Source: an uncultured Faecalicatena sp.
GTDB taxonomy: Bacteria; Bacillota; Clostridia; Lachnospirales; Lachnospiraceae
Direction of reading: 5' to 3'
DNA length: 63,699 nt
Assembly (NCBI GenBank): GCA_948468385.1
Contig: CAOKHZ010000025.1
Location: 1-63,699 of the forward strand
Below the pieces are notes generated by a model. That model was not told the DNA's origin and searched no databases. It saw nothing but the letters and a program-made list of their open reading frames with translations. Position numbers and translations under genes: made by a program. Positions 11,870 to 30,461 of this stretch are shown here, one piece after another (the first letter of the stretch is position 1; every line of letters starts with the position of its first letter).

Positions 11870-12730
11870 TTATTCCTTCTTCTTTACTCCCGTGGCTTTC
11901 CTCATAATCAATATTACGAGTATCGTCACGCCAAGTCCAAGCAACAGATACAGCATATAATAATTCTGAATGGCCTGCACCATGGACTCCGTCGGCGTGG
12001 TTTCCAGCTCCCCGTCATAAGGGACGCGGTGCCCCCGCACCAACAATCGGTGGCTGTTCACCCCGTAAGGCGTGCAGGTGAACAACGTCACGTAATCCTG
12101 CCCCGGCTCCACCTGCAAAGCCGCTTCCAACGCGTCAAAATCATCCTTGTCAACCATGGGAAGTACCTGGTCCACCTCGTACGCCATGTCCTCGTTCAAA
12201 ACGTGCACGTAAAAGCGATCGCCCCGCCCGAGCTGGTCAATGTCTGTAAACAGCTTCGCGCTGGGAAGCCCCCTATGCGCCGAGAGCACCGTGTGGTTTC
12301 CCTCGCCCCCCACCGGAAGCTTCGTCCCGTTCAGGTGCCCGACACCCGTCTGCAGCACTTCCTCATCCGTCCCGTGGTAAATGGCCAGCTTGACGTTAAT
12401 CTTCGGAATCGTGACGTAGCCCATGACCCCGTCCCCACCCACGTTGAGCACTTTCCAGTACTCCGTGTTCTTTATGTCATCGGAATGATCGATGCCAAAC
12501 ACGTCCGTCAAAATGCTGTTCTGCTCAAATGTCTGATTGTAATATCTGGCTGCCGCCCATTCCTCTTCAAAGTTTTCCTCAGTCATCTGGCTCACGACCT
12601 CGTCATAATTAGAAATGAGCTGCGACTGCCGGTACTTGTTCCACTGGTCGGCCACGGTCGGATAAATCAAAATGCCGAAGCCCGCCAAAAATAACAGTCC
12701 GAACAAAATTGTGGACAATTTCTTTTTCAT
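11870..12730 (-). CDS. Class C (pilin-polymerising) sortase, second of the pair, locus 1
   Basis: The 286-residue sortase has an N-terminal membrane helix (about 7-23) and a second one near the C-terminus (about 253-275), the two-helix layout of class C enzymes. Catalytic residues can be placed: His152 (LSAHRGLPSAKLF), Cys219 (TLFTCTPYG) and Arg228 (NSHRLLVRG). Class C sortases join backbone pilins through a pilin Lys. The ATG overlaps the stop of the preceding sortase by 4 bases (ATGA). Having two such enzymes per locus may reflect division of work between backbone polymerisation and tip or third-pilin addition. Paralogue: 28284-29165. Confidence 0.9.
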   Translation of the reverse strand: MKKKLSTILFGLLFLAGFGILIYPTVADQWNKYRQSQLISNYDEVVSQMTEENFEEEWAAARYYNQTFEQNSILTDVFGIDHSDDIKNTEYWKVLNVGGDGVMGYVTIPKINVKLAIYHGTDEEVLQTGVGHLNGTKLPVGGEGNHTVLSAHRGLPSAKLFTDIDQLGRGDRFYVHVLNEDMAYEVDQVLPMVDKDDFDALEAALQVEPGQDYVTLFTCTPYGVNSHRLLVRGHRVPYDGELETTPTESMVQAIQNYYMLYLLLGLGVTILVILIMRKATGVKKKE

Positions 12731-13686
12731 GCTCCTTCCTCCCGCGACCCATCTGGTTCGGCCTTTGTCCCCTCGGAATCTGCTTTCCCCTCTTCCGAGT
12801 CAGCCTTCGCCTTTTCTTTTGCCGCTTCAGATTTCTGCTTCATCCGCATTTTCCTATCCCTTCGATATAACACGAAACAAAACGCGCCCGTCACCGCCAG
12901 ACCGATGACCACCCATAACAAATAATTGGTATGAAGGCTCATGTTGCCAAGCGGAACGCTCTCGTTCATGACCACTTCCGGCTCATACGGCACCCGATGT
13001 CCCCGCACCAAAAGGCGGTGGCTGTTCACCCCATAAGGCGTACACGTAAGGAGCGTGACCAAATCCTCGCCCTCCTCCACGGACAAGCATTGCGTCTCCT
13101 CCGGCTCGACCACCATAATCTGATCCACCTCGTAACACAAGATGTCATCTAAAATATGCAGGAGAAAATGATCTCCTTTTTCCAATTTGTCCAAATCCGT
13201 GAACAGTGCCGCGCTCGGCAAGCCCCGGTGCGCGGAGATGACCGCGTGGGTATCTTTCCCTCCCGCCGGAAGGGAACTCCCTTCCAAATGTCCCGCCGCC
13301 TTTTCCAATACGTCCTCGTCCGTCGTGTGGAAAATGGGAAGCGTAATCTTAATCTTGGGAATCTCAATCGTCCCCATGATGCCGTCCCCGCCAATGTTTA
13401 AGCAGGACATGTAACGTTCGTCTTCCTCGCTCGCCTGCGCGACGGCAAACGAGTCGGGAAGGATGCTGGGAAGGAGGGCATCATTGTAGCTTTCTGCCTG
13501 CGCCCATTCCGCCTCGTAATCAATCGTGCCCTGTGCCTCCATGTCGGCCACCGTCTGCTCATAATTACTAATCAACTGACCCTGCCGATAATTATTCCAT
13601 TGATTTGCCACGAGCGGATACAACAGCAAGGACAACCCGGCTAAAAATAAAATCACTATGAAAATTTTACTCGCTTTCTTACTCAT
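12727..13686 (-). CDS. Class C (pilin-polymerising) sortase, first of the pair, locus 1
   Basis: The protein has 319 residues when started at ATG 13686 (MSKKASKIFIVILFLAG). That start has AAGGAGAG 8 bases upstream, and the 41 residues of the longer frame look non-coding. It has membrane helices near both ends, His in SAHRGLPSAALFTDLDKL, Cys in TLLTCTPYG and Arg in NSHRLLVRGHRVPY. A Lys/Glu/Ala-rich tail (KAKADSEEGKADSEG) of about 50 residues follows the second helix and would be cytosolic. The gene follows the backbone pilin after a 215-base gap that contains a strong stem-loop. Paralogue: 29162-30211. Confidence 0.9.
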   Translation of the reverse strand: MSKKASKIFIVILFLAGLSLLLYPLVANQWNNYRQGQLISNYEQTVADMEAQGTIDYEAEWAQAESYNDALLPSILPDSFAVAQASEEDERYMSCLNIGGDGIMGTIEIPKIKITLPIFHTTDEDVLEKAAGHLEGSSLPAGGKDTHAVISAHRGLPSAALFTDLDKLEKGDHFLLHILDDILCYEVDQIMVVEPEETQCLSVEEGEDLVTLLTCTPYGVNSHRLLVRGHRVPYEPEVVMNESVPLGNMSLHTNYLLWVVIGLAVTGAFCFVLYRRDRKMRMKQKSEAAKEKAKADSEEGKADSEGTKAEPDGSREEGA

Positions 13687-13795
13687 CCAGACTCTCCTTG
13701 TGGCTGTACCTGCGTTCCCATCATTACCTTGTACGCATATTCCTGCGGCAGAGGATATTAGCCCTTCCCGCACAAGTTCACATTCTTCTTTTAAA

Positions 13796-13818
13796 CCTCG
13801 GGGCATCATGCCCCGAGG
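13796..13818 (-). promoter_or_regulatory. GC-rich stem-loop between backbone pilin and sortases, locus 1
   Basis: CCTCGGGGCAT and ATGCCCCGAGG form a perfect 11-bp stem with a 1-base loop. Read on the minus strand it is followed by TTTAAAAGAAG, so it could act as a weak, leaky terminator or as an mRNA-stabilising 3' end. Either would let backbone pilin be made in excess of sortase. Confidence 0.55.
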
Positions 13819-13901: not shown

Positions 13902-15563
13902 TCATTCCTTCGAAACATCCTTGGAGGATTTTCTACGGCTCGCGAAGAACAAACCGGCCGCGATAATCATGATGGCGCAACCACCAATGGTAAAGATAGT
14001 CGTACCGATACCACCAGTGGACGGAAGACCGGAAAGCTTGGTGTTTGGTATGTTAATTTTATCTCCGGACGCCGCATTTCCAAACTCGCCTACGTTGACT
14101 GAAGAATCACCCTTCTTATCTGTTCCATTAATGGTAACCGTATACGTCTTGGTCAAATCCTCTTCCTCATCGCCTTCGTTCAGCTTGTTTTTCGTGACCG
14201 TTATCGTATAAGTAACATCCTCTCCGTTATACTCGTCGCCAGGATCCGTTAAAGCAATCTCAATCTTGTAAATTGTATCATTAATCGAATATCCGTCAGG
14301 TGCCGCTGTCTCCATCAGGTAATATGTTTTATCACCGTCCAGCCCCTTAAAGTCAATCTTGCCATCCTCTTTCGTTACGATATGGTCAAATTCAGTTGCG
14401 TATACGCTATTTTCTTCACTCCATTTTATCTCCGTAGTATTCTCACCCGCTTCAGCAACTTCCTCATATAAGGTAAACGTCGCACCAGGCAGCGCTTTAC
14501 CGTCATCACCGATTTTTCCGAACACGCCATTCAGGGCAAATGTAAACACCTGCTCCTTGTCTTCTTTCGTGGTCGTTTCGTTCGGTGTGCGTGAATACTC
14601 CAACGTGGCTTTATTTTCACCCACCATCTTAACCGCGTCGTCCGTAATTTCCACACTATACTTTATGGTAACTGCACGTTCTTCCACCGTGGCACTTGCA
14701 AGACTCGAAATATACTCCGGCTTAAATGCAATTGTAAACGTGTCATGCTCAGCATCATAATCCGAGGTGTACTCTGTACCTTTTGTCAGTGTCTCTATAT
14801 CCTCTCCCGTTCCAATTGTCACAACCGGCTCCGTGCTATATTTCAAACCATTCACAATCGTGTCAGTAATTTTGAAAGTTGGATTTGTATAATAGCTCGG
14901 ATCATAGGATGGAATCGTACTTGAAATCGTAAACGAAACAGTGTCTCCCACTTTCACTTCCGTGTCAAACTCCGGCTTCTCCAAAGACTTATCAACCGTT
15001 ATCTCGCTCGACTTGGCAAATGCGTCGGTTGTTTCCAATGTCCAATTTTCACTGGCATCCAACGTGTCCGTTGCAAGCGTATTATTACTGCCACTGCCTT
15101 CCACCGTGTAAAAAACACTGACAACCATCGGGTTATACGTCTTGACCGCGTCAGTCTTTGGCGGCGTCACCAAGACCATCCACGTACCGGCGGTCAATTT
15201 CCCATTTTCAGCATCTCTGGGATCGAATCCCTCTTTTTTATCCAAGCTGGCCGGATTGGCGGCCAAAGCAGTAATCACTTCACTTGTCAGGCCTACCACG
15301 TTTCCTTCTGTATCAAACGTCACTTTCTCCCCTGCGTTGGGAGTTCCCGCCGCCCACACATATCCGGTGAAGCCGCTGTCATTATACGTTGCGTCGATAA
15401 TCTGGTATGCGTCAAATGTCGCACCCGCCTCCACGTTTGTAATCTCCACCTTTTTTGAATCTTCCGGCACCGGTTTTGTACCGGCCGCCGATACCGTCAC
15501 CGCCATTCCCAGTACCAATGCCAGCGACAACATCACTGCAAAAAATTTTTTGAATTTTTTCAT
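13902..15563 (-). CDS. Major backbone pilin with LPSTG sorting signal, locus 1
   Basis: The 553-residue protein has a signal peptide (1-27, ending TVSAA), an N-terminal pilin domain (MVLVTPPKT ... NPMVVSVFY), and middle domains of the isopeptide fimbrial type (VDKSLEKPEFDTEVKVGDTVSF, ITDTIVNGLKYS). A Cna-B/SpaA-like module carries the E-box YYLMETAAPDGYSIN. LPSTG begins at residue 513 and is followed by a membrane helix and RRKSSKD. This is the profile of a class C sortase-polymerised shaft pilin. The Lys of a pilin motif is not obvious; KTYNP is the closest. The signal peptide and C-terminus are almost identical to the paralogue at 30462-32036, whereas the exposed middle is strongly diverged. 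Confidence 0.9.
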   Translation of the reverse strand: MKKFKKFFAVMLSLALVLGMAVTVSAAGTKPVPEDSKKVEITNVEAGATFDAYQIIDATYNDSGFTGYVWAAGTPNAGEKVTFDTEGNVVGLTSEVITALAANPASLDKKEGFDPRDAENGKLTAGTWMVLVTPPKTDAVKTYNPMVVSVFYTVEGSGSNNTLATDTLDASENWTLETTDAFAKSSEITVDKSLEKPEFDTEVKVGDTVSFTISSTIPSYDPSYYTNPTFKITDTIVNGLKYSTEPVVTIGTGEDIETLTKGTEYTSDYDAEHDTFTIAFKPEYISSLASATVEERAVTIKYSVEITDDAVKMVGENKATLEYSRTPNETTTKEDKEQVFTFALNGVFGKIGDDGKALPGATFTLYEEVAEAGENTTEIKWSEENSVYATEFDHIVTKEDGKIDFKGLDGDKTYYLMETAAPDGYSINDTIYKIEIALTDPGDEYNGEDVTYTITVTKNKLNEGDEEEDLTKTYTVTINGTDKKGDSSVNVGEFGNAASGDKINIPNTKLSGLPSTGGIGTTIFTIGGCAIMIIAAGLFFASRRKSSKDVSKE

Positions 15564-15683: not shown

Positions 15684-18600
15684 CTAAATCCTTAACTTTT
15701 CAGCACCCCCCTTATGTTTATTTCTATATGCTATCAGCGCCGCGGCCGACATCAGCAGCACGCCGCCAAACATATACCAATAAATTCCAGTTCCGCCCGT
15801 GGACGGAAGTTCGTAAACGACCTCGTTTTTGAAATAGTAGACACACAACACATCTCCATTTTCACCCTCATAGGCATCCGCTTCCTTGGAAACAAACTCT
15901 CCTGTCTCCCCGTCTCTTACCGCCACCGTAGCTTTGTCATCTTCACCAATCGTCACCATCCATTCCATGGTGCTCAACGCGTAACCGACTGGTGACTCTA
16001 CCTCTTTTAGCAAATACGTGCCTGCTTCAAGCTTTAATTCTTCGGCCGTCTTTGCATTCATCAACAAGCCCTTATCATCAGAAATAAACGTATCCGACAC
16101 TGCTCCGGCCACTGGCGTCCCATACGGATCACATGGTGTCAGTAGAAATTTTGCTCCTTTTAAAGGATTACTTTGTTCCGTACTTTCACCACTACCCACC
16201 TTCACGATTCTGAAATCCGTAAGCAATGTATTTGTCACGACCAGCGTATCCTTATACACCCCATTCCGTTCGGTTGCTCCGGCATTTTCACTTGTCCTTG
16301 CCGTATATTGAACCTTGTACTGGGCAGATGGGAAAGTTCCCGTTTGGCCATCTTCAACCGGGTGGCCTTCGGCATCCAACTCCCGCACACTATATACGAT
16401 TTCTATGGCATTCGCATTATAGTTTTCTTCCTGCCCTTCCACTTTAGGAGGCCATTCATAACGATACTGCGGAAGATTGTCAAACGCCGCCTTCCAGCCA
16501 TTGGCTTCGCTTAGCGTGACCGTCCTATATATTGGATTTCCATTTTCATCAGTACATGGATAGGGCTCTCCGTCAGCATATAATGCCAACTTTACCTCCG
16601 ATGGTCGGAACTCCGCGCCCCCGGCACCTTCATTTTGCCACTCCTTTTCCACCTCGACGCTGATTGGCTTTAACTTATTCGTCAATACGCCATTCTCCAG
16701 TATCGGTTCATATCCATCAGGAAGGCTGATTTCCTCCACGCTGTAACTATACGTATACTCTACACCATTGGCACCACTGTGTACCGGGAGTCCCTTCCAC
16801 TCATGACGCCAACCATTCTCCTCCGACAGCTCCGCTACCATCGCCGTTCTCTTGTCATCACCATCCGCTCCAGCCTTTTGTAAAAGCCGAATGACAACTT
16901 TTTCCGGCCTGAACGGATTATCCTGGTCATCCCATTTCTTTTCCACGCTATACGTCGTAGTTGGCGGGGTGGTAACTGAAACGGGCTCCGATTTTGGTAA
17001 CGTAAACTGCATGTAACAACATGACCCCGTACCGCCTCGCTCCATATAAAATATCTTCATCGTATGTGTCGCAGCAGGGTCATTTAACATTCCATTCTTT
17101 TGCATCCAATCCCGCAAATCAACGGAATGTCCTATCGCACTATGGATTCCACCAATATCAACGACTAATTTCCCGTCAACAAATAACCAGAAATCATCAT
17201 CTCCTCGGAAATAGTATTCCATTGGCCCCGTATAGTCACCCACTTTAAAATTAATGGTATACGTCATCCCAAAAAACCAGTTGTGTTCCGTCCCATTTTT
17301 CTCATCATTTTCAGGCGTATTATAAGATGAATGATAAGTATTTGTATCTGCCATCCATTTCTTATAAATATACTGACCATTCCTCGCGCCCATCTTAGGA
17401 TCCATACCATCCTCGCCATCTAATGGCCAAAAGAAATTGGAATATCTTACTGGCTTAGGCTGCCCTGACGGTGCCCATCCTTCGAACGGTTTAAATGTTG
17501 TCAAATCCTCCATTCCGGGTACTACGTTTCCATTTTTATATACGGATGCCAAAGTATACGTGTCACCATTTTGTTTAAATCGAAGACTATAACCTTCACA
17601 AGCCGTTGAACCAACCCCTATTGAAGTATCTTCTCCAACGGCAAACAAATTTTTAGGAGCCGCAATTCCATCATTAAACTGTAACGTTCCATTAGCCCCG
17701 CCTTGTAATTCGCTCTTAACAAACCCTTGTGCAACTCCCGAGCCACCATTTCCTTTATTCAAAAACTTGCCATTAATACTCGCGTTTTCAACATATTGAC
17801 TCCCATTCCCGGAAGTGGCCTGACCCACTTGCAATTTAGGTTTCGTAGTCCCCTCCGGATAGTTACTTGGACTATTAATTCCCTTTTCATTTGTATCGCC
17901 CAACTGATTCCCATTCGGTTTTGAGGCACTAATGTCATAGTCAAAAAACTGCACGGGGACGTCCTCAAATTGTACGTTTTCATATTGCTTCGGCTCGTAC
18001 CAAAAACGTATCACCGTATCCGCCGTCAGTTTTACCTCCTGAATTGCCAAGCTTTCTGTTGAAGTCGTACTGGCACCACTTGATTTGACATCATATGACA
18101 GATACATAGGTTGCTTAGTACCGTCCTCCAGCCAAGTCTTTTTTTCATCTTCTGAACCGCTCAAACATTTCGTATTGGTGGCAATCCAAATTTTTGTTAA
18201 TTCATAATGTGCATCTTCCTCTTCACTATACGCTTTACAAATCTTACTCAATTCCTCGACCTTACAATAATATTCATTCGGAATCGTAATCTCATCTTGG
18301 GAATATATTTCGCAATTCTCCGTCGTTGTTTTAACTCTACCATTTTCCGGGTCATACGCCGTATCTGCACCTGTCACAGCATCTGCCGTGCCATCTATCG
18401 TCTCGATATTCTCTCCCCAGTGCTGTACTGTCAACGTGATGTTTCCAGAAAGATTCTCCAAATTCACGTACACGTACACCGAAAAGTGTTCCGTCTCTAT
18501 CACCACGTCCTTCTCTTCCGTGGCGGTCGCCCCCATGTCCGTCGCCACGCCGCTGTTTTCATCAACGTGGATGACGCCCACCTCGGTCGCCTCGTCCTCG

Positions 18601-20312
18601 ACGGCTTTCGCCACCTCGCGGCTGGAGAACTTCACGGAGACCGGCCCCAACGGCTGTACTTCCTCGCCGTCAACCATCAGCTTGATGTCGAATGCCTGGT
18701 AACTGCTGACCTCCTTTTCCTTCTCCTCCGCTATTTTCGTGACGGCTTCCTCGATGGCCACGGCCCTCTCGTCACTGGGCGCACTTTCTCCGTCTTCGGT
18801 TTCGGTCGCCTCGCCGCTAGCCGATTGCGCGCTGACCTTCTGTTCACTGGCCACGATTAACTCCGCCTGGATGCTATATTCCTTCCCTTCCTCAAAAGAA
18901 CTTGCCAAACCGCTCAACGTAATTGTGGTATCACCCACGTCCGTTGACAATTCCACCACCGGCTCTTCCACGCCGTCCTTGCCGGATTTCTCCACAACTT
19001 CCCCGCCATCCGCTTCGGGTGCGTTCTCGCCATCCTCCGTTCCCGGCTCAATTCCATTTTCACCGTCTTCCGTTCCGGCTTCGGACGCATTTTTGCCACC
19101 TTCGACATCCGAACCTTCACTTTCCCGCCCCGTCATTTCGTCGACATGTTTATATGCCCGCTCCATCTCCGTCGTTTTCAGGTACGCGAAAATATGCTCA
19201 TCGTTCGCGGCATATGTGTTTTCCTTCACCTCGTTCGCGCTATTGCCCTCGATGACCTTGGTTTCATTTCTTTCCTTATTATAAGAAGAAACGATGCCCA
19301 TCTGCTTGGCAGTCTCTTCCCCTTGTCTTTCGAAAAACACGATGTCCCCGGCCTGCGGCTCATACCCTTCCGCAACCGTCAAGTATCCGTTATCCTTTTC
19401 AAGAACGAAACGCTCGTGCCACTTGGCGGTATCCGTCTCGCTCAAGAACATGCCGGACTCTTCCAATCCCGCATAATGGAGACAGAAATTCACGAACGCC
19501 GCGTCCCAATTGACATAGACATCCCCCGCGTACTGCCCGTAACGGGTGTATCCCTTATGGCTTCCGTCCTCCGTTATCTGATAGTTTTCAACGCTCTCTT
19601 TGTAACCAAGCTGCTTCTGCGCGGCCGTCACCAAGTCTTCGCCCCACACGTCCTTCCACTGCACGTTCGAGTATTGTGCGTCCCAGACGAACGCGTCCTC
19701 CACGTCCGCGTTCACGTCAATCCAGCACAAATCCGTGTGCACGTGTTCTTCCTTTTCGCACGCCAGCTGTCGCTCACGGCAGCTTTCCGTATGAGAATGC
19801 CCATCCCCCTCGTTTTGTCCGCAAACGAGCACGTTTTCCGTCTGGAAACAGTCGTCCGAATGCTGATGGCCCTCGGTTTCTTCCTGCCCGCAAACGAGCA
19901 CGTTTTCCGTCTGATAGCATTCATCCGTATGTTGATGTTCCTCGCCCTCTTCCTGCCCGCAGACCAACTTCGTCTCCGACCGGTAGCAACCGTCACCGTG
20001 CCCGTGGCCCTCGCGCTCCTCCTGCCCGCAGGACAACGTCCTCGACGGCTGGTAACAGCTCTCGGAATGTTGATGCTTCGCGCCTTCCTCCTGGCCGCAG
20101 ACCAGAACGTCCTGATAGCATTCTTCACCATGCACATGCTCCTCGTGTCCGCATTTCGCCTGCCCCGTCATGGCAAACCCATACTGCGTCAAAATTCCCA
20201 CGACGCTACTGGCAACGATGACCACAAGAAGTGCCACGGCGACTTCCATTCTTCTGCGCTTCTTGTGTCGTCTATTCAACTCATTCAAATATTCCTTCAC
20301 AAGTTTTTGCAT
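15684..20312 (-). CDS. Giant tip adhesin with Cys/His repeats, pseudo-CHAP and fibro-slime domains, locus 1
   Basis: 1542 residues. Order: basic N-terminus and a membrane/signal segment (24-46); seven Cys/His repeats of the form C-G-x-E-E-x-G-x-x-H-x-H-x-x-x-C (about 54-198); a CHAP-like domain (about 215-370) in which the expected catalytic Cys is Asp (NWDAAFVNFCLHYA); an acidic low-complexity linker; beta domains; a fibro-slime/PA14-type domain (WFFGMTYTINFKVGDY ... YYFRGDDDFWLFVDGK, about 1010-1110); two Cna-B modules (VEKKWDDQDNPFRP and VEVEKEWQNEG); and a SpaA-like module (FRIVKVGSGES ... YLLKEVESPVGYAL). LPSTG is at 1502 with helix and basic tail. It probably forms the pilus tip. The gap to the LepB gene is about 125 bases. 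Confidence 0.85.
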   Translation of the reverse strand: MQKLVKEYLNELNRRHKKRRRMEVAVALLVVIVASSVVGILTQYGFAMTGQAKCGHEEHVHGEECYQDVLVCGQEEGAKHQHSESCYQPSRTLSCGQEEREGHGHGDGCYRSETKLVCGQEEGEEHQHTDECYQTENVLVCGQEETEGHQHSDDCFQTENVLVCGQNEGDGHSHTESCRERQLACEKEEHVHTDLCWIDVNADVEDAFVWDAQYSNVQWKDVWGEDLVTAAQKQLGYKESVENYQITEDGSHKGYTRYGQYAGDVYVNWDAAFVNFCLHYAGLEESGMFLSETDTAKWHERFVLEKDNGYLTVAEGYEPQAGDIVFFERQGEETAKQMGIVSSYNKERNETKVIEGNSANEVKENTYAANDEHIFAYLKTTEMERAYKHVDEMTGRESEGSDVEGGKNASEAGTEDGENGIEPGTEDGENAPEADGGEVVEKSGKDGVEEPVVELSTDVGDTTITLSGLASSFEEGKEYSIQAELIVASEQKVSAQSASGEATETEDGESAPSDERAVAIEEAVTKIAEEKEKEVSSYQAFDIKLMVDGEEVQPLGPVSVKFSSREVAKAVEDEATEVGVIHVDENSGVATDMGATATEEKDVVIETEHFSVYVYVNLENLSGNITLTVQHWGENIETIDGTADAVTGADTAYDPENGRVKTTTENCEIYSQDEITIPNEYYCKVEELSKICKAYSEEEDAHYELTKIWIATNTKCLSGSEDEKKTWLEDGTKQPMYLSYDVKSSGASTTSTESLAIQEVKLTADTVIRFWYEPKQYENVQFEDVPVQFFDYDISASKPNGNQLGDTNEKGINSPSNYPEGTTKPKLQVGQATSGNGSQYVENASINGKFLNKGNGGSGVAQGFVKSELQGGANGTLQFNDGIAAPKNLFAVGEDTSIGVGSTACEGYSLRFKQNGDTYTLASVYKNGNVVPGMEDLTTFKPFEGWAPSGQPKPVRYSNFFWPLDGEDGMDPKMGARNGQYIYKKWMADTNTYHSSYNTPENDEKNGTEHNWFFGMTYTINFKVGDYTGPMEYYFRGDDDFWLFVDGKLVVDIGGIHSAIGHSVDLRDWMQKNGMLNDPAATHTMKIFYMERGGTGSCCYMQFTLPKSEPVSVTTPPTTTYSVEKKWDDQDNPFRPEKVVIRLLQKAGADGDDKRTAMVAELSEENGWRHEWKGLPVHSGANGVEYTYSYSVEEISLPDGYEPILENGVLTNKLKPISVEVEKEWQNEGAGGAEFRPSEVKLALYADGEPYPCTDENGNPIYRTVTLSEANGWKAAFDNLPQYRYEWPPKVEGQEENYNANAIEIVYSVRELDAEGHPVEDGQTGTFPSAQYKVQYTARTSENAGATERNGVYKDTLVVTNTLLTDFRIVKVGSGESTEQSNPLKGAKFLLTPCDPYGTPVAGAVSDTFISDDKGLLMNAKTAEELKLEAGTYLLKEVESPVGYALSTMEWMVTIGEDDKATVAVRDGETGEFVSKEADAYEGENGDVLCVYYFKNEVVYELPSTGGTGIYWYMFGGVLLMSAAALIAYRNKHKGGAEKLRI

Positions 20313-20437: not shown

Positions 20438-21016
20438 CTACAAAATCTCCAAACGGCCAAGCGGCCACACCCGGCATACGATTTTTCCGACAATCTGGCT
20501 CCTTTCCACGCATCCGATGGCCCTCATTCGACTGTCAACGGACTCCACCCGATTGTCACCCAGTACGAAAATCATTCCCTCCGGTACCTGATAGGGAAAT
20601 TCTAAATTGCATTTTCCAAAGTCCTTTTCCTCCAAATATGGCTCGTCAATCATGTCGCCGTTGACATATACGTTCCCCTCCTGGTCAATCTCTATATAAT
20701 CTCCCGCGTTCCCTATCACGCGCTTTAAGAGCACCTCGCCCCCATAGTAAAAGCCAATCACGTCCCCTACCTCGACCGACTTCGTCTGATAAAGAAAGAT
20801 GATTTCCTTTTCTTCCAGCGTCGGCCTCATGCTCGAGCCGTTGACCTCCAATATCATGAACAGCCTCGTTACCATCAATGCCGCTATGGCGGCCGCCACG
20901 GTCAGTATGCCGGCTATCGTCAGCATCGTCCTTCGAAATTCCCTCTCAGCCTCAACCCTTGCAAGTTCCGCCCGAAGAAGATCCAAGGAAGGAATTTCCA
21001 CCCTCTTTTTATCCAT
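20438..21016 (-). CDS. Signal peptidase I, LepB/Ser-Lys type, locus 1
   Basis: The 192-residue type I signal peptidase has one membrane helix (about 32-55), the nucleophile Ser62 in NGSSMRPTL, the general base Lys98 in LLKRVIG, and the family boxes GDYIEID and LGDNRVESVDSR. It cleaves Sec signal peptides and is presumably dedicated to the large adhesin and pilin precursors encoded next. The ATG at 21016 is preferred because it overlaps the coiled-coil gene's stop as ATGGATAA, exactly as in the paralogue at 36495-37097. The N-terminal 25 residues form a charged amphipathic helix before the membrane, a feature kept in both copies. Confidence 0.9.
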   Translation of the reverse strand: MDKKRVEIPSLDLLRAELARVEAEREFRRTMLTIAGILTVAAAIAALMVTRLFMILEVNGSSMRPTLEEKEIIFLYQTKSVEVGDVIGFYYGGEVLLKRVIGNAGDYIEIDQEGNVYVNGDMIDEPYLEEKDFGKCNLEFPYQVPEGMIFVLGDNRVESVDSRMRAIGCVERSQIVGKIVCRVWPLGRLEIL

Positions 21017-21554
21017 GTCCGTCACCCGGAGCGTCCGACAGCATAAAACCTTCTACCAAATCCACCAGATTCGCCTCCGCATCTTCTTGTAATCCCGCCA
21101 GATACGGCTCCATGCCATTTTGCGCATTCGCCAGACGGGATTCCGCATTTTTCTGTACCGCCTTGAAAAGTCCGTCGAGTAACAACGCCGCCTCGGCAAA
21201 AGAGCCGTTCTCTTTCATTTCACCGACCTTCGCCAACTGCAACTTTTCAATGGTGCCGTTAAGCTCCATAATCTTCGCGTCTTTCTGGTTCAAACGCTCG
21301 TCTTTCACGTTCAGCTTTATTTTCAAACGTTCGTAACTTTCCTCCAGCTCCTTCAAGCGCGCATTTGCCACGTCGGCTTCCTTTTGCAATCGCTCTGCCT
21401 CCTCGCACTGCACGATAAGCATCTGAAGAAGCTCCCTGCGATTCAGCCTGCGCAATTCCTTGTCCGTCAAATTACCGCCTTCTTTCTTCCCCTGACACCC
21501 GCCTCGTCTTGCCGCCGGCCTCCATCGCCTCTTCTCATTCTTCGGCTCCGCCAC
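21009..21554 (-). CDS. Coiled-coil protein, first gene of fibre operon 1
   Basis: I do not recognise a named family. The chain is a charged helix-rich protein: KELRRLNRRELLQMLIVQCEEAERLQ, then a long coiled coil (about 30-110 of the core) and a shorter helical C-terminus. There is no signal peptide. The paralogue at 37090-37725 has the same ELRR-RRELLQMLIVQCEE start and the same position before LepB. The start is unsure: GTG 21554 has a poor ribosome binding site, while TTG 21470 (LTDKELRR) aligns with the paralogue's MAEKELRR and follows GAAGGCGG. Its 8-base overlap with LepB implies coupled translation. A cytosolic assembly or scaffold role is a guess. Confidence 0.7.
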   Translation of the reverse strand: MAEPKNEKRRWRPAARRGGCQGKKEGGNLTDKELRRLNRRELLQMLIVQCEEAERLQKEADVANARLKELEESYERLKIKLNVKDERLNQKDAKIMELNGTIEKLQLAKVGEMKENGSFAEAALLLDGLFKAVQKNAESRLANAQNGMEPYLAGLQEDAEANLVDLVEGFMLSDAPGDGHG

Positions 21555-21645
21555 TCTCCAACGACCCGTCAGTCATCTTATTCATCATTTTGGCCGACTA
21601 CAATGCGAATCCAACATACGCCATCCCGTTATCCTGTACGCAAAA

Positions 21646-21674
21646 TACCACATAATCGGCCTTATGTGGTATTT
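21646..21674 (+). repeat. Left inverted repeat of an invertible promoter
   Basis: 29 bases that recur exactly in inverse orientation at 21945-21973. The site is itself a dyad: arms AAAATACCACATAA and TTATGTGGTATTTT (21642-21675) around a non-palindromic 6-base core TCGGCC. This is the size and plan of a Xer/dif-like tyrosine-recombinase crossover site. Confidence 0.85.
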
Positions 21675-21944
21675 TGAGAGTAATAAAGGCGGTTATGGGT
21701 CACATAACATGCCAATTCATGCCTATATATTAATGCAGTATATTTTCTTTGTCAATAAAATGTGATTAAAATTTCACAAATTTTCGACTTTTTGTTGTAT
21801 TTGCCGATTTTTTGATTCACATCAAAAAGACCTTTCATGGTTTTTGACAAGGAAGGTTTCTTTAAGTCAATATTTTTTTCGATTTTTCCCTCCTTTCAAC
21901 TATTTTTTACCTTGACAAATTACTTTTTGGAAAGGAGATGCCTC
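21675..21944. promoter_or_regulatory. Invertible promoter segment controlling fibre operon 1
   Basis: 270 AT-rich bases with no gene, flanked by inverted repeats and lying between a tyrosine recombinase gene and the fibre operon. Its best promoter (21727-21755) faces the operon. The opposite strand has TTGACA at 21844 and at 21912 but no good -10 at 16-18 bases. Inversion would point the strong promoter at the recombinase gene's 3' end instead. The present orientation is therefore read as ON. Confidence 0.75.
21727..21755 (-). promoter_or_regulatory. Promoter inside the invertible segment, facing fibre operon 1
   Basis: On the minus strand TTGACA (21755-21750), a 17-base spacer and TAATAT (21732-21727). 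Transcription would start near 21720 and pass through the left inverted repeat, giving a leader of roughly 165-250 bases before the first gene. Confidence 0.75.
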
Positions 21945-21973
21945 AAATACCACATAAGGCCGATTATGTGGTA
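21945..21973 (-). repeat. Right inverted repeat of the invertible promoter
   Basis: Exact inverse copy of 21646-21674 with core GGCCGA. It overlaps the recombinase gene: the last residues (Leu-Thr-Thr) and stop TAA of that gene are read from this repeat, so inversion leaves the coding end unchanged. Confidence 0.85.
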
Positions 21974-22836
21974 AGGCATGCCTCTTTCGGGCAACCGCCT
22001 ATCACCAGGCCCAGCGCTTCCATGCACTGCCGATGTTCCTTGCCGGAAGAAATCGTGTATATTCTCGTAGTGTCAATGCTACTGTGTCCCATAAGATCTG
22101 CCAACTTGGCGATGTCCTTTTCTTGTTCATAAAACGTCCTCGCAAACAAATGACGCAGATTATGTGGAAATACCTTCTGGGCGCAGATTCCCGCCGCCCG
22201 GCAAAGAGACTTCAACATTTTCCAGATATTGCTGCGATCCATCGGCTTGCCGCTTCGGGTGACGAAAATGGAACCCGAATCCAACTTTTTTCTTCTCACA
22301 TATTTTCTCAATATCTTACGAAGCTTTTCCGGAATCAGGATGACCCGCGTCTTCCCTTTTAAACAAATGGTGATTTCCCCTTCTTCCACCCCCTCCACAG
22401 TAATGAACTTCAATTCCGACACCCGGATTCCGATACTACAAAGCGTCTGAATCAAAAGCGACAACCGAAAATCCTCCTTTTCCTCCGCCGTCTTTATAAG
22501 GCACATGTATTCTTCCTTCGTCAATTCCTTGTCGGCGGAACAATACACCTTTTGCTGGATGCGCAAAAATTTCAAACGCAAGTCCGCACGACCGATGAAA
22601 GAAAGGAAACTATTGACGGCCGCCAACTTGGTATTGACGCTGACGGGCTGGTACTCTTCTTCCAACCCCGCCTTGTACTCGAGCAACAACTCCTTCGTCG
22701 CCATTCTTTCACCAAGAAATTCCAAGAAACGCTCCGTCTCCCTTCGATACTGCTTCCGCGTGGCGACGCTTCGCTCCTCCCTCTCCAAAAAAATCAAATA
22801 CGACTCCAGCTTTTCATTCCAACTCATCTTCTCCAT
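21964..22836 (-). CDS. Tyrosine site-specific recombinase (invertase) next to the switch
   Basis: 290 residues. An N-terminal SAM-like core-binding domain (about 10-95: LESYLIFLEREERSVATRKQ) and a C-terminal catalytic domain with Arg in GIRVSELKF, Lys before VILIPEKLRK, HNLRHLFART (HxxR), the GHSSIDTT box and Tyr in RIYTIS. The size and layout match Xer-like invertases that flip small promoter segments. A good AGGAGG site precedes the ATG. The gene points towards the switch and its stop codon lies within the right inverted repeat. It is the obvious candidate to invert 21675-21944; whether it also acts elsewhere is unknown. Confidence 0.9.
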   Translation of the reverse strand: MEKMSWNEKLESYLIFLEREERSVATRKQYRRETERFLEFLGERMATKELLLEYKAGLEEEYQPVSVNTKLAAVNSFLSFIGRADLRLKFLRIQQKVYCSADKELTKEEYMCLIKTAEEKEDFRLSLLIQTLCSIGIRVSELKFITVEGVEEGEITICLKGKTRVILIPEKLRKILRKYVRRKKLDSGSIFVTRSGKPMDRSNIWKMLKSLCRAAGICAQKVFPHNLRHLFARTFYEQEKDIAKLADLMGHSSIDTTRIYTISSGKEHRQCMEALGLVIGGCPKEACLTT

Positions 22837-22896
22837 GGTAAATTCCTCCTAAAAAATAGCCGCCCCGTGAAATACACAAGACGGCAATACCATTAG

Positions 22897-23020
22897 TTAC
22901 CTATTAACTTCTAAATATTTTACGAGCTTCTCCGCGTCACAATCCAATGCGAACCCCTCGACAACATCACAAATCCTCGTCCTTCATGATGTTGTGCATT
23001 CTTTTTTCATTCCCATTCAT
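22897..23020 (-). pseudogene. Possible small frameshifted protein upstream of the recombinase
   Basis: An AAGGAGGGG site precedes ATG 23020 (MNGNEKRMHNIMKDE), and that frame stops after 17 codons. Skipping one base in the GAGGATT stretch joins it to ICDVVEGFALDCDAEKLVKYLEV and stop TAA at 22897-22899, which has protein-like composition. The whole would be about 40 residues. It may be a decayed or frameshift-regulated small regulator, or chance. Confidence 0.3.
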
Positions 23021-23060
23021 TCCCCTCCTTTTGTGCTATGGCAGGAGAATATACTTTGTG

Positions 23061-23083
23061 CTTATACTAGCACATAAGGCCGA
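23061..23083. promoter_or_regulatory. Possible recombinase promoter with a half crossover site
   Basis: CACATAAGGCCGA at 23071-23083 matches 13 bases of the right inverted repeat (left arm end plus core). On the minus strand it is directly followed by TATAAG (23066-23061), a possible -10. The other arm is degenerate. It may be an operator where the recombinase represses itself, or a worn recombination site. Confidence 0.4.
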
Positions 23084-23121
23084 AAATGACAACCAATAAT
23101 TTTTTAATTTGGACATTCTGA

Positions 23122-23170
23122 TTTTGGCGCACGGTTTCCCGACTGTTTGGGCGGCCCCCCGTGAAAAGTA
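23122..23170 (+). repeat. Dispersed 49-bp repeat, copy 1
   Basis: TTTTGGCGCACGGTTTC ... CTGTTTGGGCGGCC ... CCGTGAAAAGTA. A nearly identical 50-bp copy, inverted, lies at 56481-56530. CACGG and CCGTG within it can pair. It lies downstream of the locus 2 SipW gene. The remaining bases between 22837 and 23219 hold only the small ORF and half-site described separately. Confidence 0.7.
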
Positions 23171-23219
23171 GCTTTGGCGGCTTTGCCGAGCGGCACGGTG
23201 ATTCCTGGCAAATCCTTGT

Positions 23220-23798
23220 TCATCGGTTTTGCAGACTCGTCCCAAGCAGGTTGAGCACCAATCCCAGCATGACAACGCATGCCGCGGCAATTTTCCCGTA
23301 AAGTGACGTCATGATTGTGAGCAGCTTTCCGACATAGGGAACGGAAAGTGCCACCCGTCCAATGTAATTCTCATAAGGTACCGGTGTGGGATCCTCCTTT
23401 TCATTGGCATCACCTTTCGTGCGAAACGTGCCGGACACCACGTTGTTTTTCACGACCCGATGGGTAATGATTCCCCCATCCTCCAGCGAACTATAAAACG
23501 CAATGACCTCTTCTTCCTGCACGTCCTCTGCCTTTCCCTCTCGGACATACAACAAACTGCCGACCGGTATCGCCGGCTCCATGCTGCCGCTTAAGACGTT
23601 ATACATACGAAAACCAAAAACCCCCGGCAGAACCAGAAGGGAGCATAGGAGGATGACGATGACAATCATCGCCATCCCCGTCACGCTGCAGATTCTGCCG
23701 GGTACGTTACCCCTTTTCTTCTTTTTCCTCCGCGTGACTCGCTCATTCACATCGCGTTCCCTCGCGGCACTTTTCTTTGCCTCGTCTCTTCTCGCCAT
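23220..23798 (-). CDS. SipW-type (ER-type) signal peptidase I, locus 2
   Basis: The 192-residue paralogue of 6587-7186 is near-identical from the first membrane helix onward. It keeps Ser in SGSMEPAIPVGS, His in ITHRVVKNN, the Asp in TKGDAN, and a second C-terminal helix. The N-terminal basic tail differs (RRDEAKKSAARERD). It lies at the end of operon 2, 2 bases after the MucBP-like gene, and is the presumed processing enzyme for the two TasA-like precursors of this locus. No DivIVA-like gene follows; the next feature is a dispersed repeat. Confidence 0.88.
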   Translation of the reverse strand: MARRDEAKKSAARERDVNERVTRRKKKKRGNVPGRICSVTGMAMIVIVILLCSLLVLPGVFGFRMYNVLSGSMEPAIPVGSLLYVREGKAEDVQEEEVIAFYSSLEDGGIITHRVVKNNVVSGTFRTKGDANEKEDPTPVPYENYIGRVALSVPYVGKLLTIMTSLYGKIAAACVVMLGLVLNLLGTSLQNR

Positions 23799-23800
23799 GG

Positions 23801-24889
23801 CTACTTCTCATCATCCGACTCTTCCGTCGTCTTTTTACCTTGACGTTTCGCCGGCGTGATACCCGCAAGCCTTTTCTTCCTGAGAAGCAACGCCATCACG
23901 ATCAACGCTGCCACCGCAATGACACCAATCGCGATATAAAACGGCATATAGCCTACCATCTTCCCGGAAGACTCCTGCAATTTCTTATTTTCAAGCGGTA
24001 CGTCGTCTTCGTCCAAGTCCTGCAGGTTCTGAGGAACGTCTTCATCCGGAACCGCCGTCAAATCTCCGCCAATCACTTCCGGCTCGCCTTCGGCCGCGTC
24101 CGGCAACGGTATTCCCGCGCCCTCGCCAATCGGCCCCTCGGCCACGCCCGCATCCGCTCCGCCGGTTACTCCGCCATCCGTTCCAGCGGCCGCTCCGGCA
24201 CCACCGGTCGTTCCGGCATCACCCGCCCCACCGGTCGTTCCGGCGTCACCCGCTCCGCCGGTTTCGTTTCCGGTTTCACCGCCGGCCACGCCGCCAGTCT
24301 GCACCGGCGTGTACTGAAAGTCAAACACGTTCTCCGCCTCGTTCGTCGACAAAGTCTTCACCATGTTAAGCGCCTGCGGCTGATACCCGTCCACATAGCG
24401 CGCCGACACATATTGCCGCTCGCCCGCCGAGCCATAATACGTGTCACTCGGCAAAAGGCTGTTGCCATCCGCGTCCAGATAGTTCACGGTATATGCCACC
24501 ATGTCGCCCTTGACACCATAGGCGATTACATAATCCCTGTCACTTGCCACCAAGAAGGAGGACTCCGTCGCTTCCGAATTGTCTCTTCCCGAACGTCTGA
24601 CTCCTCTCGCATAATACCTTTCATCCGTCACCGTCACCGCGTCCTGATAAACAATATACACGAGGTCGCCATATTTCAACCCGCTGATTACGATTCGCTC
24701 CTCGCCGTAAGTGACGCTCGCGCCGGCCGGAACGCTGATGCCTTCTCCGGTCAAAGTTCCCTGGTTCCCGGCATAAAGCCTTACCGTATAAGTATACTCT
24801 TCCTCCTCCGCAAACGCCGTCTGCGGAAGCAGCGCGATTAACATGGACAAAATCAGAAGACTTAATTGTACTTTTTTTAAGCACCTCAT
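23801..24889 (-). CDS. MucBP-like repeat protein with C-terminal membrane anchor, locus 2
   Basis: The start at 24889 (MRCLKKVQLSLLILSMLIALL) has AGGAGG upstream. Signal peptide ending QTAFAEEEE, the beta module with YTVRLYAGNQGTLTGEG, the MucBP-like module (AYTVNYLDADGNSLL), a Gly/Thr/Ala linker with GDAGTTGGA repeats, an acidic segment, and a membrane helix (about 310-330) with basic tail. Similar to 7183-8316, with the main differences in the linker. Probably a cell-surface accessory subunit of fibre locus 2. Confidence 0.75.
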   Translation of the reverse strand: MRCLKKVQLSLLILSMLIALLPQTAFAEEEEYTYTVRLYAGNQGTLTGEGISVPAGASVTYGEERIVISGLKYGDLVYIVYQDAVTVTDERYYARGVRRSGRDNSEATESSFLVASDRDYVIAYGVKGDMVAYTVNYLDADGNSLLPSDTYYGSAGERQYVSARYVDGYQPQALNMVKTLSTNEAENVFDFQYTPVQTGGVAGGETGNETGGAGDAGTTGGAGDAGTTGGAGAAAGTDGGVTGGADAGVAEGPIGEGAGIPLPDAAEGEPEVIGGDLTAVPDEDVPQNLQDLDEDDVPLENKKLQESSGKMVGYMPFYIAIGVIAVAALIVMALLLRKKRLAGITPAKRQGKKTTEESDDEK

Positions 24890-24890
24890 A

Positions 24891-25814
24891 CTACTTTCGC
24901 CTCCTTTTTCTCGTCTGCGGCCTTGATTGCGCACCCGCGTCCGCGCCCTCGCCCGCACTCACGCTCACGATGTCCACGGCTTTACCCGCACTCACGCCTT
25001 CGCCCACGCCTTTGTGCTCCCGACGCAGCCTCACGACGACCACCGCCATGATAACGAGCCCTGCCACCAGCATTCCTGCCATGCTCGCCATGAACGTGGT
25101 CTGGTCGCCTGTTTTTACGACCTCTCCGCCTCCCGGCGTGTTCCCGTTCGGGCTTCCCGGCTCACCAGGCGTGCCGCCGTTCGGATTTCCCGAACCGCCT
25201 CCCGGCGTATTGCCTCCTGGTCCGGCCGGCGTACCGATTCCGCCTTGCACCATTTCCGTGGCAAAATCCATCTGTAATCTGGCAAATGTATTCTGATAAT
25301 CATTGACCAGCGTCTCGCCGTCCAAAGCCACCTTCAACTTCACGACACCCTCGTCGCCCTCGCCCATCCGATCAAGATAAAAATAGTCATCAAGCGAAGT
25401 GGTCGCCCCATGAAGCCCAACGCCGTTAATCCTTCCATCGCCGCCAAACTTCTCACTTGAATACAGCGTCGTCGTCTCGCCCGCCGTGTCCGTGTACGTC
25501 AAAAGATAATCATACGCGCCGCCCGCCGCTTCGCCGGCATCCTCCAAGGTGCTTAGCACCTCGTTCTTCATATACCAATCAGCCTGACCGTCGTGGTCAT
25601 TTTTCAAAGTAATGGTAAGCTCGACGGAATCTCCAGGTTGCATCAGGTTAATCTCGTCCGCCATGTTGCCCGACGTGAAATTACTCTCCATCGCCTGACC
25701 GTCAAACCGAACCTGCCATCCTTCGGCGCCCTGCCGATCCTCGGCCATTGCCGTCACGGAGGACGCGACTACCAGAAATGCCGCCAAACCAAAGCCTAAA
25801 ACTCTTTTCCTCAT
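24891..25814 (-). CDS. VKTGD-motif surface protein, locus 2
   Basis: The 307-residue paralogue of 8318-9277 has a conventional signal peptide of about 25 residues (ending VTAMAED). It has the same folded domain (GWQVRFDGQAMESNFTSGN), a Gly/Pro/Asn-rich linker (GGNTPGGGSGNPNGG), VVKTGDQTT, a membrane helix and a long charged tail (GEGADAGAQSRPQ). The motif is conserved between the loci, which supports a functional role as a sorting or anchoring signal despite the missing Leu-Pro. Confidence 0.7.
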   Translation of the reverse strand: MRKRVLGFGLAAFLVVASSVTAMAEDRQGAEGWQVRFDGQAMESNFTSGNMADEINLMQPGDSVELTITLKNDHDGQADWYMKNEVLSTLEDAGEAAGGAYDYLLTYTDTAGETTTLYSSEKFGGDGRINGVGLHGATTSLDDYFYLDRMGEGDEGVVKLKVALDGETLVNDYQNTFARLQMDFATEMVQGGIGTPAGPGGNTPGGGSGNPNGGTPGEPGSPNGNTPGGGEVVKTGDQTTFMASMAGMLVAGLVIMAVVVVRLRREHKGVGEGVSAGKAVDIVSVSAGEGADAGAQSRPQTRKRRRK

Positions 25815-25829
25815 CCTATCGCCGCCCCC

Positions 25830-26591
25830 TTACAAAATTCCAAGCGCGGACGCGTCCACGCCCCACGCGCTCTTAATTGCGTCCTGCGCATTGTGCGTCT
25901 GCACTGCGTCCACCTCTACGTCCACATGGAACTCCACACCATCATATTTGTAAGTGGTAGTAATCGTGTTTCCCTTCGTCTCCACTTTCGCCTCGGTGGC
26001 CACCCGTCCGTCTATGCGAATGGAGTCCACGAAAGCCGCCGACTCGGCACCGGATGGTAAAATCCCCTTGTAATAAAGCTCCACGCATTCCTTACCGCTC
26101 ACGCCGGCATCGTCCGGGTTCTTCACCCATTGCCCTTCGTTTACGAAGTTTAGGTCAATCAAATCCGGCGACAATGTCGTCACTTTCTTCCCGTCCTTCA
26201 TCCAATACCGATAAATTCGCACCCGCACGTACTCGTCGATGCTTCCGCTGTTTCTGACGGTCAAATTTTCCTCATACGTTTTGTTAAGAGCCAGCTTTTC
26301 ACCTTCGCCCAACATGTTTTTAAGCAACGCGCCGCTCGTGAAACCGTCCTCCTGGTTGGTTTTGACTTGCCACTCGCTGTTGTCATAGTCACGGCTGCTA
26401 ACCACCTCTCCATTTTCCACCAGGCTTACGCCAATCTGGGAAACCGTAATTTCCGCCGTGTAGTTTTCACTATAATACGTCAGCGCCGCGCGCGTGCTCC
26501 CAATGCCACTTCCCAATAACAGCACCGCCGCCAACGCCATCAAGCCATACGTCACGTACCTGCTTTTGGAGGCCTTCCTTTTCTTTCTCAT
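25830..26591 (-). CDS. TasA-like fibre protein with SipW-type signal peptide, locus 2
   Basis: 253 residues, very similar to 9294-10064 over the whole chain: SipW-type signal (GSGIGSTRAALTYYSENY), beta domain with LTVRNSGSIDEYVRVRIYRYW, FVDSIRIDGRVATEAKVETK, and the identical tail KSAWGVDASALGIL. Strong conservation contrasts with the diverged pilins and tips, pointing to a structural core component. The start overlaps the previous gene's stop by 4 bases. Confidence 0.8.
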   Translation of the reverse strand: MRKKRKASKSRYVTYGLMALAAVLLLGSGIGSTRAALTYYSENYTAEITVSQIGVSLVENGEVVSSRDYDNSEWQVKTNQEDGFTSGALLKNMLGEGEKLALNKTYEENLTVRNSGSIDEYVRVRIYRYWMKDGKKVTTLSPDLIDLNFVNEGQWVKNPDDAGVSGKECVELYYKGILPSGAESAAFVDSIRIDGRVATEAKVETKGNTITTTYKYDGVEFHVDVEVDAVQTHNAQDAIKSAWGVDASALGIL

Positions 26592-27205
26592 GCGATTTCA
26601 GCCCCCTCTCCTGCCGCGTTCACTTGATAATCCAGACCCTTCGTCCGTTCTTCGAACGTACTCGCGCCATAAAAATCCATCTGCCCCGTCATGCGCGACT
26701 GGTAATCCGAATATGTCGTCGTCCAATCCGCCACGGCGTTCCCCGACGCGTCATACACGACCGGGGTACATTCCTGAATGACCACCACGTTGAAATTGTC
26801 CTTGTCAAATCCTTCCGGCAGGACAATCTGTGCGTCCAACACCGTGGTCGTCGCCCCTGCCGCGAGTATCGGACGATAGTACCAATAATCATCCTCGCCC
26901 TGATACCAGTTCGAACCGCCGTCGGCCTGCGTATAATTGATGGCAAGTTCGCCGCCGCAAAACACCTTTACCCTGACAAAGCAATCATTTGTCGCCGAAG
27001 CATTTTCAAGAGAAATGTGCTTCGTCATGTTGCTTACCTCCTCGTGAATCTCCGTCTCGGCTCCCAGGCTCACGACCTGGCTGCCGCCCGCGGACACATA
27101 AGTGGTAAAATACGCCGTGGCACCCTCTATCGTCAACGCCGCCGTCATGCCAAGGGCCGCGGCCGACATCACGGCCAATTTGCCAAACTTCTTAAAATCC
27201 TTCAT
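26588..27205 (-). CDS. SipW-dependent secreted protein (TasA/TapA-like partner), locus 2
   Basis: 205 residues. Signal segment LAVMSAAALGMTAALTIEGATAYFT, then the same beta domain as 10064-10606 (VNDCF/TNDCFVRVKVF, YWYYRPILAAGATTTVLDAQI). A C-terminal extension of about 25 residues (MTGQMDFYGASTFEERTKGLDY) is absent from the locus 1 copy, as if that one was trimmed. Start ATG 27205 with AAGGAGCGG upstream. Confidence 0.75.
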   Translation of the reverse strand: MKDFKKFGKLAVMSAAALGMTAALTIEGATAYFTTYVSAGGSQVVSLGAETEIHEEVSNMTKHISLENASATNDCFVRVKVFCGGELAINYTQADGGSNWYQGEDDYWYYRPILAAGATTTVLDAQIVLPEGFDKDNFNVVVIQECTPVVYDASGNAVADWTTTYSDYQSRMTGQMDFYGASTFEERTKGLDYQVNAAGEGAEIA

Positions 27206-27223
27206 CCTTGCCGCCGCTCCTTC

Positions 27224-28267: not shown

Positions 28268-28283
28268 CGTCTACACCTCCGAT

Positions 28284-30211: not shown

Positions 30212-30327
30212 CCGGACTCTCCTTGTAGTTGTATCCTCGTCTTTCTTGTTGGTTCTCTCTAGTGAACGTGCCCGTTTTGTCCCATTGGCCTTACCCTGGT
30301 ATACGCACCCGTCTCGCCTTGTCGGCT

Positions 30328-30354
30328 CTCCCGGGACACCCCGCCCCGGGAGAA
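30328..30354. promoter_or_regulatory. GC-rich stem-loop between backbone pilin and sortases, locus 2
   Basis: TCTCCCGGG (30328-30336) pairs with CCCGGGAGA (30346-30354). On the coding (minus) strand no U-run follows, so it is not a standard terminator; an mRNA processing or stability element is more likely. It sits in the same interval (250 bases) as the stem-loop of locus 1 but has a different sequence. Confidence 0.5.
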
Positions 30355-30461
30355 AAATTCATGTACTTTTCAAGTTTGTTTTCAGCTCGCCATCTCGTTG
30401 GCATTCCCCAATCATTTAAGCGAACCGTGACCCTTTTCCTCTTGTATGTCGTAAGCCCTGA

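Follow-up and report, generated by a model that had tools for sequence, protein, structure and literature searches.

A putative invertible promoter switch with an adjoining tyrosine recombinase gene ahead of a sortase pilus operon in an uncultured Faecalicatena species

Does the pair of inverted repeats at the head of a pilus operon in an uncultured Faecalicatena sp. enclose a promoter that the neighbouring recombinase can turn around? The locus lies in a stretch of 63,699 nucleotides (contig CAOKHZ010000025.1), here called the window, for which a first-pass annotation had described two exact 29-bp inverted repeats around 270 AT-rich bases. A repeat search confirms them: the copies at 21646-21674 and 21945-21973 are 100% complementary with 270 nt between them, they are the only perfect pair among seven inverted pairs in the whole window (14-nt seed, 18-nt minimum length), and the G+C content is 0.29 over the 278 nt separating the 24-nt site cores. 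Within each 29-nt repeat is a palindromic 26-bp site consisting of 10-bp arms and a 6-bp spacer (TACCACATAA-N6-TTATGTGGTA); the two sites are identical without a mismatch, the spacer reading TCGGCC in one copy and its reverse complement in the other, and elsewhere in the assembly of this organism no palindromic site occurs with up to three arm mismatches. Two binding arms with a short crossover region between them are the usual anatomy of a tyrosine-recombinase site, and the segment of the window is flanked by two such sites in inverted orientation, as in an inverton. The elements of the switch are as follows.

21646..21671, no strand: distal recombination site TACCACATAA-TCGGCC-TTATGTGGTA, in the left 29-nt repeat, with arms conserved in relatives
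21675..21944, no strand: invertible segment, 270 nt between the repeats
21727..21755, minus strand: promoter-like TTGACA-17-TAATAT, facing the pilus operon as found (ON), at like distance in relatives
21948..21973, no strand: proximal recombination site TACCACATAA-GGCCGA-TTATGTGGTA, in the right 29-nt repeat
21964..22836, minus strand: tyrosine recombinase, 290 aa, the presumed inverter (Pfam Phage_integrase, 8.4e-28)
23064..23092, minus strand: likely recombinase promoter TTGTCA-17-TAGTAT, with half a recombination site in its spacer (23068-23083)

That the repeats arose by chance or as an assembly artefact is scarcely conceivable, given 29 exact nucleotides and the presence of the same arms and layout in 27 other loci.

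The recombinase gene does stand directly beside the switch, as had been noted, with its TAA stop codon (21966-21964) inside the right repeat and the proximal site; because the outer half of this site stays in place, the protein should be unchanged by inversion. It also has an N-terminal SAM-like domain (Pfam, 4.1e-05), and its frame and catalytic residues are intact, as in an inverton: R138, H225, R228 and H251, which together with Y260 we take to be the catalytic positions, occur in all of 40 near-complete recombinase sequences (window included), and Y260 in 0.97 of them. Assignment to XerA, XerC or XerD falls below the NCBIfam cut-offs (149.5 of 220, 116.4 of 335.15, and 123.5 of 329.6 bits), and two tyrosine-type DNA invertase models, presumably standing for FimB/FimE-like proteins, score 30.7 bits against cut-offs of 222 (NF007371) and 221 (NF007370). 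Among proteins of solved structure, the best two sequence matches are a XerC-like protein (4a8e) and XerA (5hxy).

Expression of the recombinase may itself be regulated. A half site (TAGCACATAAGGCCGA, 23068-23083) with the exact spacer of the switch is located between the -35 and -10 elements of the likely recombinase promoter, and may be either an autorepression element or a relic. It was rejected as a conserved autoregulatory element: the window matches at 14 of 15 positions and L003 and L004 at 12 of 15, and 15 of the 17 other loci have no match of at least 12. A terminator-like hairpin (22885-22859, minus strand; 11 pairs, seven of them G-C, with a T-run) directly precedes the likely ribosome-binding site within a leader of approximately 170 nt, as read from the sequence, which suggests attenuated expression of the recombinase. 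Conserved attenuation was likewise rejected, the window hairpin beginning 49 nt before the start codon and relatives having none at that place: of the other 40 loci, nine have a terminator-like hairpin within 170 nt upstream of where the protein match starts (always at least 109 nt upstream), 30 have none, and one is too short. No match to a known RNA reaches its gathering score in the window, the five matches within 21500-23300 (E 1.5-4.8) all being far below.

On the other side of the segment, and on the same strand as the recombinase gene, is an operon with the components of a Gram-positive sortase pilus.

21009..21554, minus strand: first operon ORF, 181 aa, its only Pfam match a KIF21A-like domain (5.1e-07); homologue in L006 (E 1.8e-12)
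20438..21025, minus strand: signal peptidase I, 195 aa; homologue in L006 (E 5e-56)
15684..20312, minus strand: large LPXTG surface protein, 1542 aa, with Cna_B, SpaA, fibro-slime and anchor domains; homologue in L006 (E 7e-72)
13902..15563, minus strand: LPXTG pilin backbone, 553 aa (GramPos_pilinBB, SpaA)
12727..13809, minus strand: class C (pilus) sortase, 360 aa (277.4 bits for NF033745, whose cut-off is 160)
11870..12730, minus strand: second sortase, 286 aa
10708..11787, minus strand: DUF5979 protein, 359 aa, perhaps still in the pilus operon, as its strand and spacing suggest

A relative of the pilin was found in two of the twelve genus genomes, the organism's own and one other. Just upstream of the switch locus, a second pilus operon (23220-38243, minus strand) encodes a signal peptidase, a large LPXTG protein, a pilin, two sortases, a DUF5979 protein and a SipW-like peptidase. 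The genome has no additional copy of the site, and switching may be confined to one of the two pilus operons.

The promoter reported to face the first operon is present exactly as described: on the minus strand, the first hexamer of TTGACA-17-TAATAT starts at 21755 and the second ends at 21727, with matches at 10 of 12 positions, of which the -10 element contributes four of six. Of the 22 promoter-like sites between 12600 and 24000, only two others also match at 10 of 12 positions, and no other has a perfect TTGACA. Taken alone it is weak, since shuffles of the segment reach its score with P = 0.063; it scores 10.5 versus 9.0 for the top match on the opposite strand, and matches at nine of 12 positions are present on both strands of the segment. 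Its support comes from its position, because relatives repeatedly have promoters about as far from one end of their segments. By sequence, the segment holds a putative promoter facing the downstream operon, as in an inverton, although the window by itself makes a weak case; on the operon strand, no promoter-like site reaches the scan threshold between the switch and the first ORF.

Alternatively, the operon might be driven mainly by read-through from the recombinase gene or from the second pilus operon, with the repeats mattering little. The genes are co-directional, and the stretch from the recombinase gene to the operon contains no intrinsic terminator in either orientation of the segment. 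Such an arrangement is nevertheless quite unlikely, as the terminator-like hairpin at 22885-22859 stands before the recombinase gene and the promoter position inside the segment recurs across relatives.

The case for an invertible promoter is carried by comparison with these relatives. A search with the recombinase yielded 17 loci, in genomes whose titles name Lachnospiraceae, Oscillospiraceae, Clostridiaceae, Eubacteriales or similar groups, with matches in six of the twelve genus genomes (own included). A scan for the site alone, blind to the recombinase, found it in 16 of 397 family genomes (own included), and a reversed control pattern of the site in none of the 397. One locus, the first, was read in each of the 15 other site-bearing genomes: a relative of the recombinase is beside the site in 13 (it is absent at L039 and L040), and by coordinates its 3' end adjoins the site in all 13.

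A spacer test was applied to 39 loci (L003-L042 minus two further copies of the window, plus the window), with site pairs picked solely by their arms (up to three mismatches) and their distance (100-1000 nt). Such a pair is present in 28 of the 39 loci, whereas five have no site and six have a site without such a pair. The two spacers match exactly in the inverted sense in 28 of 28 loci, or in 32 of 32 pairs; because a third site gives four of the loci a second pair, loci are the better count. The arms differ by up to three bases, but the spacers within a pair never differ, and the 28 loci have 25 different spacers if strand is ignored and 27 as written. Five pairs less than 100 nt apart, which were left uncounted, are direct copies with the same spacer. 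Exact matching within pairs is demanded by strand exchange between the sites, and would be unneeded by mere hairpins or protein-binding sites.

Altogether, a switch was identified at 34 of the 41 loci with a recombinase (window included): 32 came from a site scan requiring a spacer match and two (L048 and L051) from a general repeat search. Among the seven loci without one, L018, L045 and L046 are at contig ends, and L015, L017, L049 and L050 had room but no pair. The first ORF of at least 150 aa past the distal site runs in the direction of the recombinase gene, away from the switch, in 33 of the 34 switches (the exception being L058).

Several variants of the arrangement were observed. L015, L017 and L050 have recombinase relatives with a single site bearing ACCACAGA-type arms and no inverted partner found nearby. 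At L006, L012, L046, L054, L055 and L057, an extra site sharing the spacer lies 31-82 nt (start to start) from another site, in direct repeat, and such tandem sites could serve for DNA deletion or regulation. Contigs start within the recombinase gene or no more than 345 bases from the site at L019, L030/L046, L035/L045 and L039/L044; assembly breaks at switches would be expected if the reads held both orientations.

A phage origin of the recombinase family was considered and rejected, no relative being confirmed by protein in viral contigs. One viral contig (L067) starts with a recombinase that is 50% identical and an exact site pair, followed by ORFs whose translations read as serine-recombinase-like and repressor-like; it is probably host DNA at the edge of a provirus, with a prophage inserted beside a switch locus. 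Matches in six phage and 21 plasmid records are all below 60% identity, and four of the plasmid records were opened, with a site pair (up to four mismatches) in L071 and L074, a single site in L073 and none in L072.

Inversion itself has left traces in two pairs of homologous loci. L010 and L011, from the same metagenome-assembled genome, have recombinase genes 86% identical and downstream DNA (800 nt) 79% identical over 686 columns, both in the direct sense, but their segments (301 and 239 nt) align only when one is inverted (87% over 114 columns; score 136 versus 18 direct). L065a and L065b, on one contig, repeat this pattern, with recombinase genes 82% and downstream DNA 81% identical (563 columns) in the direct sense, and segments that align only inverted (83% over 169 columns; score 168 versus 29 direct). 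Judged from these alignments, both pairs show segments turned between their sites since the copies parted, an inversion on the evolutionary scale, rate apart. A segment in both orientations between homologous loci, as in an inverton, is thus found among relatives; of seven clearly similar segment pairs among the 34, these two are inverted and five lie the same way. The segments of the window and its nearest relative, L047, have no clear homology (score 28 both ways).

The direction of the promoter also varies. Within a range of 42-90 nt from one end of the segment, which was set after the promoter table had been seen, the best promoter falls in 29 of 34 switches versus 7.9 expected from shuffles; scores of at least 11 occur in 17 of 34 segments versus 0.52 expected. 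Scores of at least 10 within the range are found in 27 of the 34 switches, six facing the downstream genes (ON: L003, L011, L060, L064, L065a and the window) and 21 facing the recombinase (OFF). The loci are partly non-independent (L004/L005, L013/L014 and L056/L057/L058 being alike), and the promoter score has P above 0.05 in 13 of the 34 (L005, L052-L055, L057, L059, L061-L064, L065b and the window). Beyond the switch of L006 are homologues of the first ORF, signal peptidase and surface protein of the window. Its TTGACA-17-TATAAT points at the recombinase, the distance being 157 nt to the outer proximal site and 75 nt to a second one farther in; L006 is outside the set of 27 because 157 nt exceeds the range. 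This type of operon therefore occurs both with a promoter towards it (the window) and with a promoter away from it (L006). The comparison of orientation in related genomes proposed in the first-pass annotation thus yields both states, in L006 against the window and in the inverted segments of L010/L011 and L065a/L065b. The plan of a phase-variable promoter that it had recognized is supported by the spacers matched in every paired locus, the two inverted locus pairs, the promoters found both ways and the nearly uniform direction of the first ORF.

Strong support for the invertible-promoter reading comes at family level from these comparisons; the sites, the promoter-like hexamers, the intact recombinase, the gene order and the past inversion of the relatives' homologous segments are demonstrable in the DNA. 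The window, in turn, very probably contains a phase-variation switch in which the recombinase inverts the promoter segment of the pilus operon. The 290-aa tyrosine recombinase would bind the 10-bp arms of both 26-bp sites, cut at the 6-bp spacer and invert the roughly 280 bp between the sites. In the orientation found, the promoter of the segment would face the operon for signal peptidase, adhesin, pilin and sortase (ON); after a flip it would face the 3' end of the recombinase gene, leaving only the weaker nine-of-12 matches towards the operon (OFF). The OFF state may not be silent but leaky, because of these matches on the other strand and because, with no terminator, transcription could read through into the operon. 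We infer that the recombinase acts on the sites of the window, that the segment of this organism turns often and in both directions, and that pilus production is largely a property of ON cells; the population would contain both ON and OFF cells, as the first-pass annotation had anticipated.

A locked or slow switch, inverting so seldom in this species that the operon would in effect be constitutively ON, is unlikely; it fits the single orientation available for the species, from one assembly, but the recombinase retains an intact frame and catalytic residues, and the sites are free of mismatches, whereas decay would be expected to spoil their identity.

A different mechanism is known from Clostridioides difficile, in which, according to the available portions of the sources, the switch of cwpV is a 195-bp segment turned by RecV, with the promoter outside the segment and a terminator proposed; RecV acts on several switches, and in strain R20291 a recombinase gene is near only one of seven (Cdi7, which is not RecV-dependent) (PMC2784873, PMC5903667). 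As far as these accounts extend, the window resembles cwpV in its short segment, predicted to be inverted by a tyrosine recombinase, ahead of a gene for a surface protein in one of the Clostridia (PMC2784873, PMC5903667), and differs in that the promoter-like site is inside the segment (PMC2784873). By analogy, a promoter upstream of the switch in the window might produce a leader RNA in which the flipped segment makes or breaks a terminator. With the recombinase gene upstream, a transcript could cross the segment, and the site forms a 15-bp hairpin in the leader RNA; in some relatives (for example L016, L043, L055, L056 and L061) a T-rich stretch comes after a site hairpin, either in one orientation or in both. 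On its operon strand, however, the window has no terminator-like hairpin in either orientation, the fold of the leader is unremarkable (z -1.58), and promoters recur inside the segments of relatives, unlike that of cwpV as described in the part of the source available (PMC2784873). Control of this type is very improbable here, and inversion of the promoter itself is the preferred reading.

The geometry of the preferred switch admits a further, tentative proposal, on balance doubtful, that it controls itself: in the OFF orientation, the promoter would send antisense transcription into the 3' end of the recombinase gene, lowering the recombinase and stabilizing OFF, and in the ON orientation the antisense transcription would cease and flipping back be favoured. 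Many Clostridia would then share a portable, self-biasing switch for cargo such as pili, adhesins and capsule. The geometry fits, with the 3' ends of 13 of 13 recombinase genes from the recombinase-blind scan towards the site and 21 of 27 confidently placed promoters towards the recombinase. Growth conditions or sampling could equally cause the OFF bias among the assemblies.

A domain scan of 39 selected proteins encoded downstream of the switches indicates that surface proteins are common among the cargo, yet not universal. Proteins with VWA, Cna_B, SpaA, DUF7601 or DUF7604 domains are found at L007, L008, L043, L048, L052, L054 and L060, BspA-type leucine-rich proteins at L013, L016 and L019, capsule proteins of the CpsB/CapC type at L056 and L057, and an NlpC/P60 protein at L061. 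Cargo without an evident surface role includes a helicase at L010 and L011, an RNase HII-like protein at L047, an aldolase at L051, a SUFU/TPR protein at L003, an Rrf2 regulator at L065 and a permease-histidine kinase at L012, and several of the scanned proteins, such as those in L004, L005, L053, L064 and L065, have no domain match. At L055 (6572-11545), a few genes on from the switch, is a protein with FHA and FtsK/SpoIIIE domains, which we take to be as in type VII secretion.

The kind of element is already known, as an invertible promoter or "inverton" with a tyrosine recombinase, and the window is a further case of it with strong comparative support. In Streptococcus zooepidemicus, as the available text describes, a recombinase gene is beside the invertible promoter of an LPXTG surface protein (SZO08560 / SZO08550), five reads had the promoter region reversed, transcript was 44-fold more abundant in the forward direction, and the inverted state was read out by a reverse-strand transcript of the recombinase gene (PMC2654543). 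The window is alike in having a recombinase gene beside a putative invertible promoter for an LPXTG surface protein; the streptococcal element, in the same text, differs in its repeats (GTAGACTTTA / TAAAGTCTAC), its segment of approximately 115 bp and its single surface protein, versus a pilus operon here (PMC2654543).

Closer in phylogeny is inverton group 139 with invertase group 35 of human gut Clostridia, for which the accessible part of the report counts 33 invertons, of which 32 are from Clostridia, and places nearly all of them next to a single group of tyrosine-type recombinase/integrase genes; it also gives orientation changes in reads and two printed examples, one with 26-nt repeats 205 nt apart and the other with 14-nt repeats (PMC11892184). 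The layout of the window switch agrees in part, being like the example with 26-nt repeats and unlike that with 14-nt repeats; the ACCACATAA family, and the window switch with it, may belong to group 139, beside which it is set by layout and not by repeat motif, as far as the accessible part allows (PMC11892184). As a literature search term, ACCACATAA retrieved only unrelated subjects among the matches listed.

The fimS element of E. coli is a 314-bp invertible promoter of a fimbrial operon, turned by FimB/FimE, with fimE RNA running towards the switch, as given in part in the available portions of the sources (PMC9993118, PMC2784873). The window is similar in having a probable invertible promoter of a pilus operon, presumably turned by a tyrosine recombinase, and unlike it in having a Gram-positive sortase pilus, not one of the chaperone-usher type, and a recombinase whose 30.7 bits with the two tyrosine-type DNA invertase models fall far short of the cut-offs. 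Among the matches listed in the literature searched, which lacks most subscription papers, none describes an invertible promoter for sortase pili in Lachnospiraceae.

The observation is real and well explained, and the module has been traced through many related bacteria. Its compact site (conserved arms and a free 6-bp spacer), together with a dedicated recombinase, is a signature by which phase-variable loci can be sought in assemblies alone, and the orientation of each switch is readable from its assembly. If the switch flips, single cells would be piliated or bare by chance, with consequences for adhesion, immune recognition and phage sensitivity.
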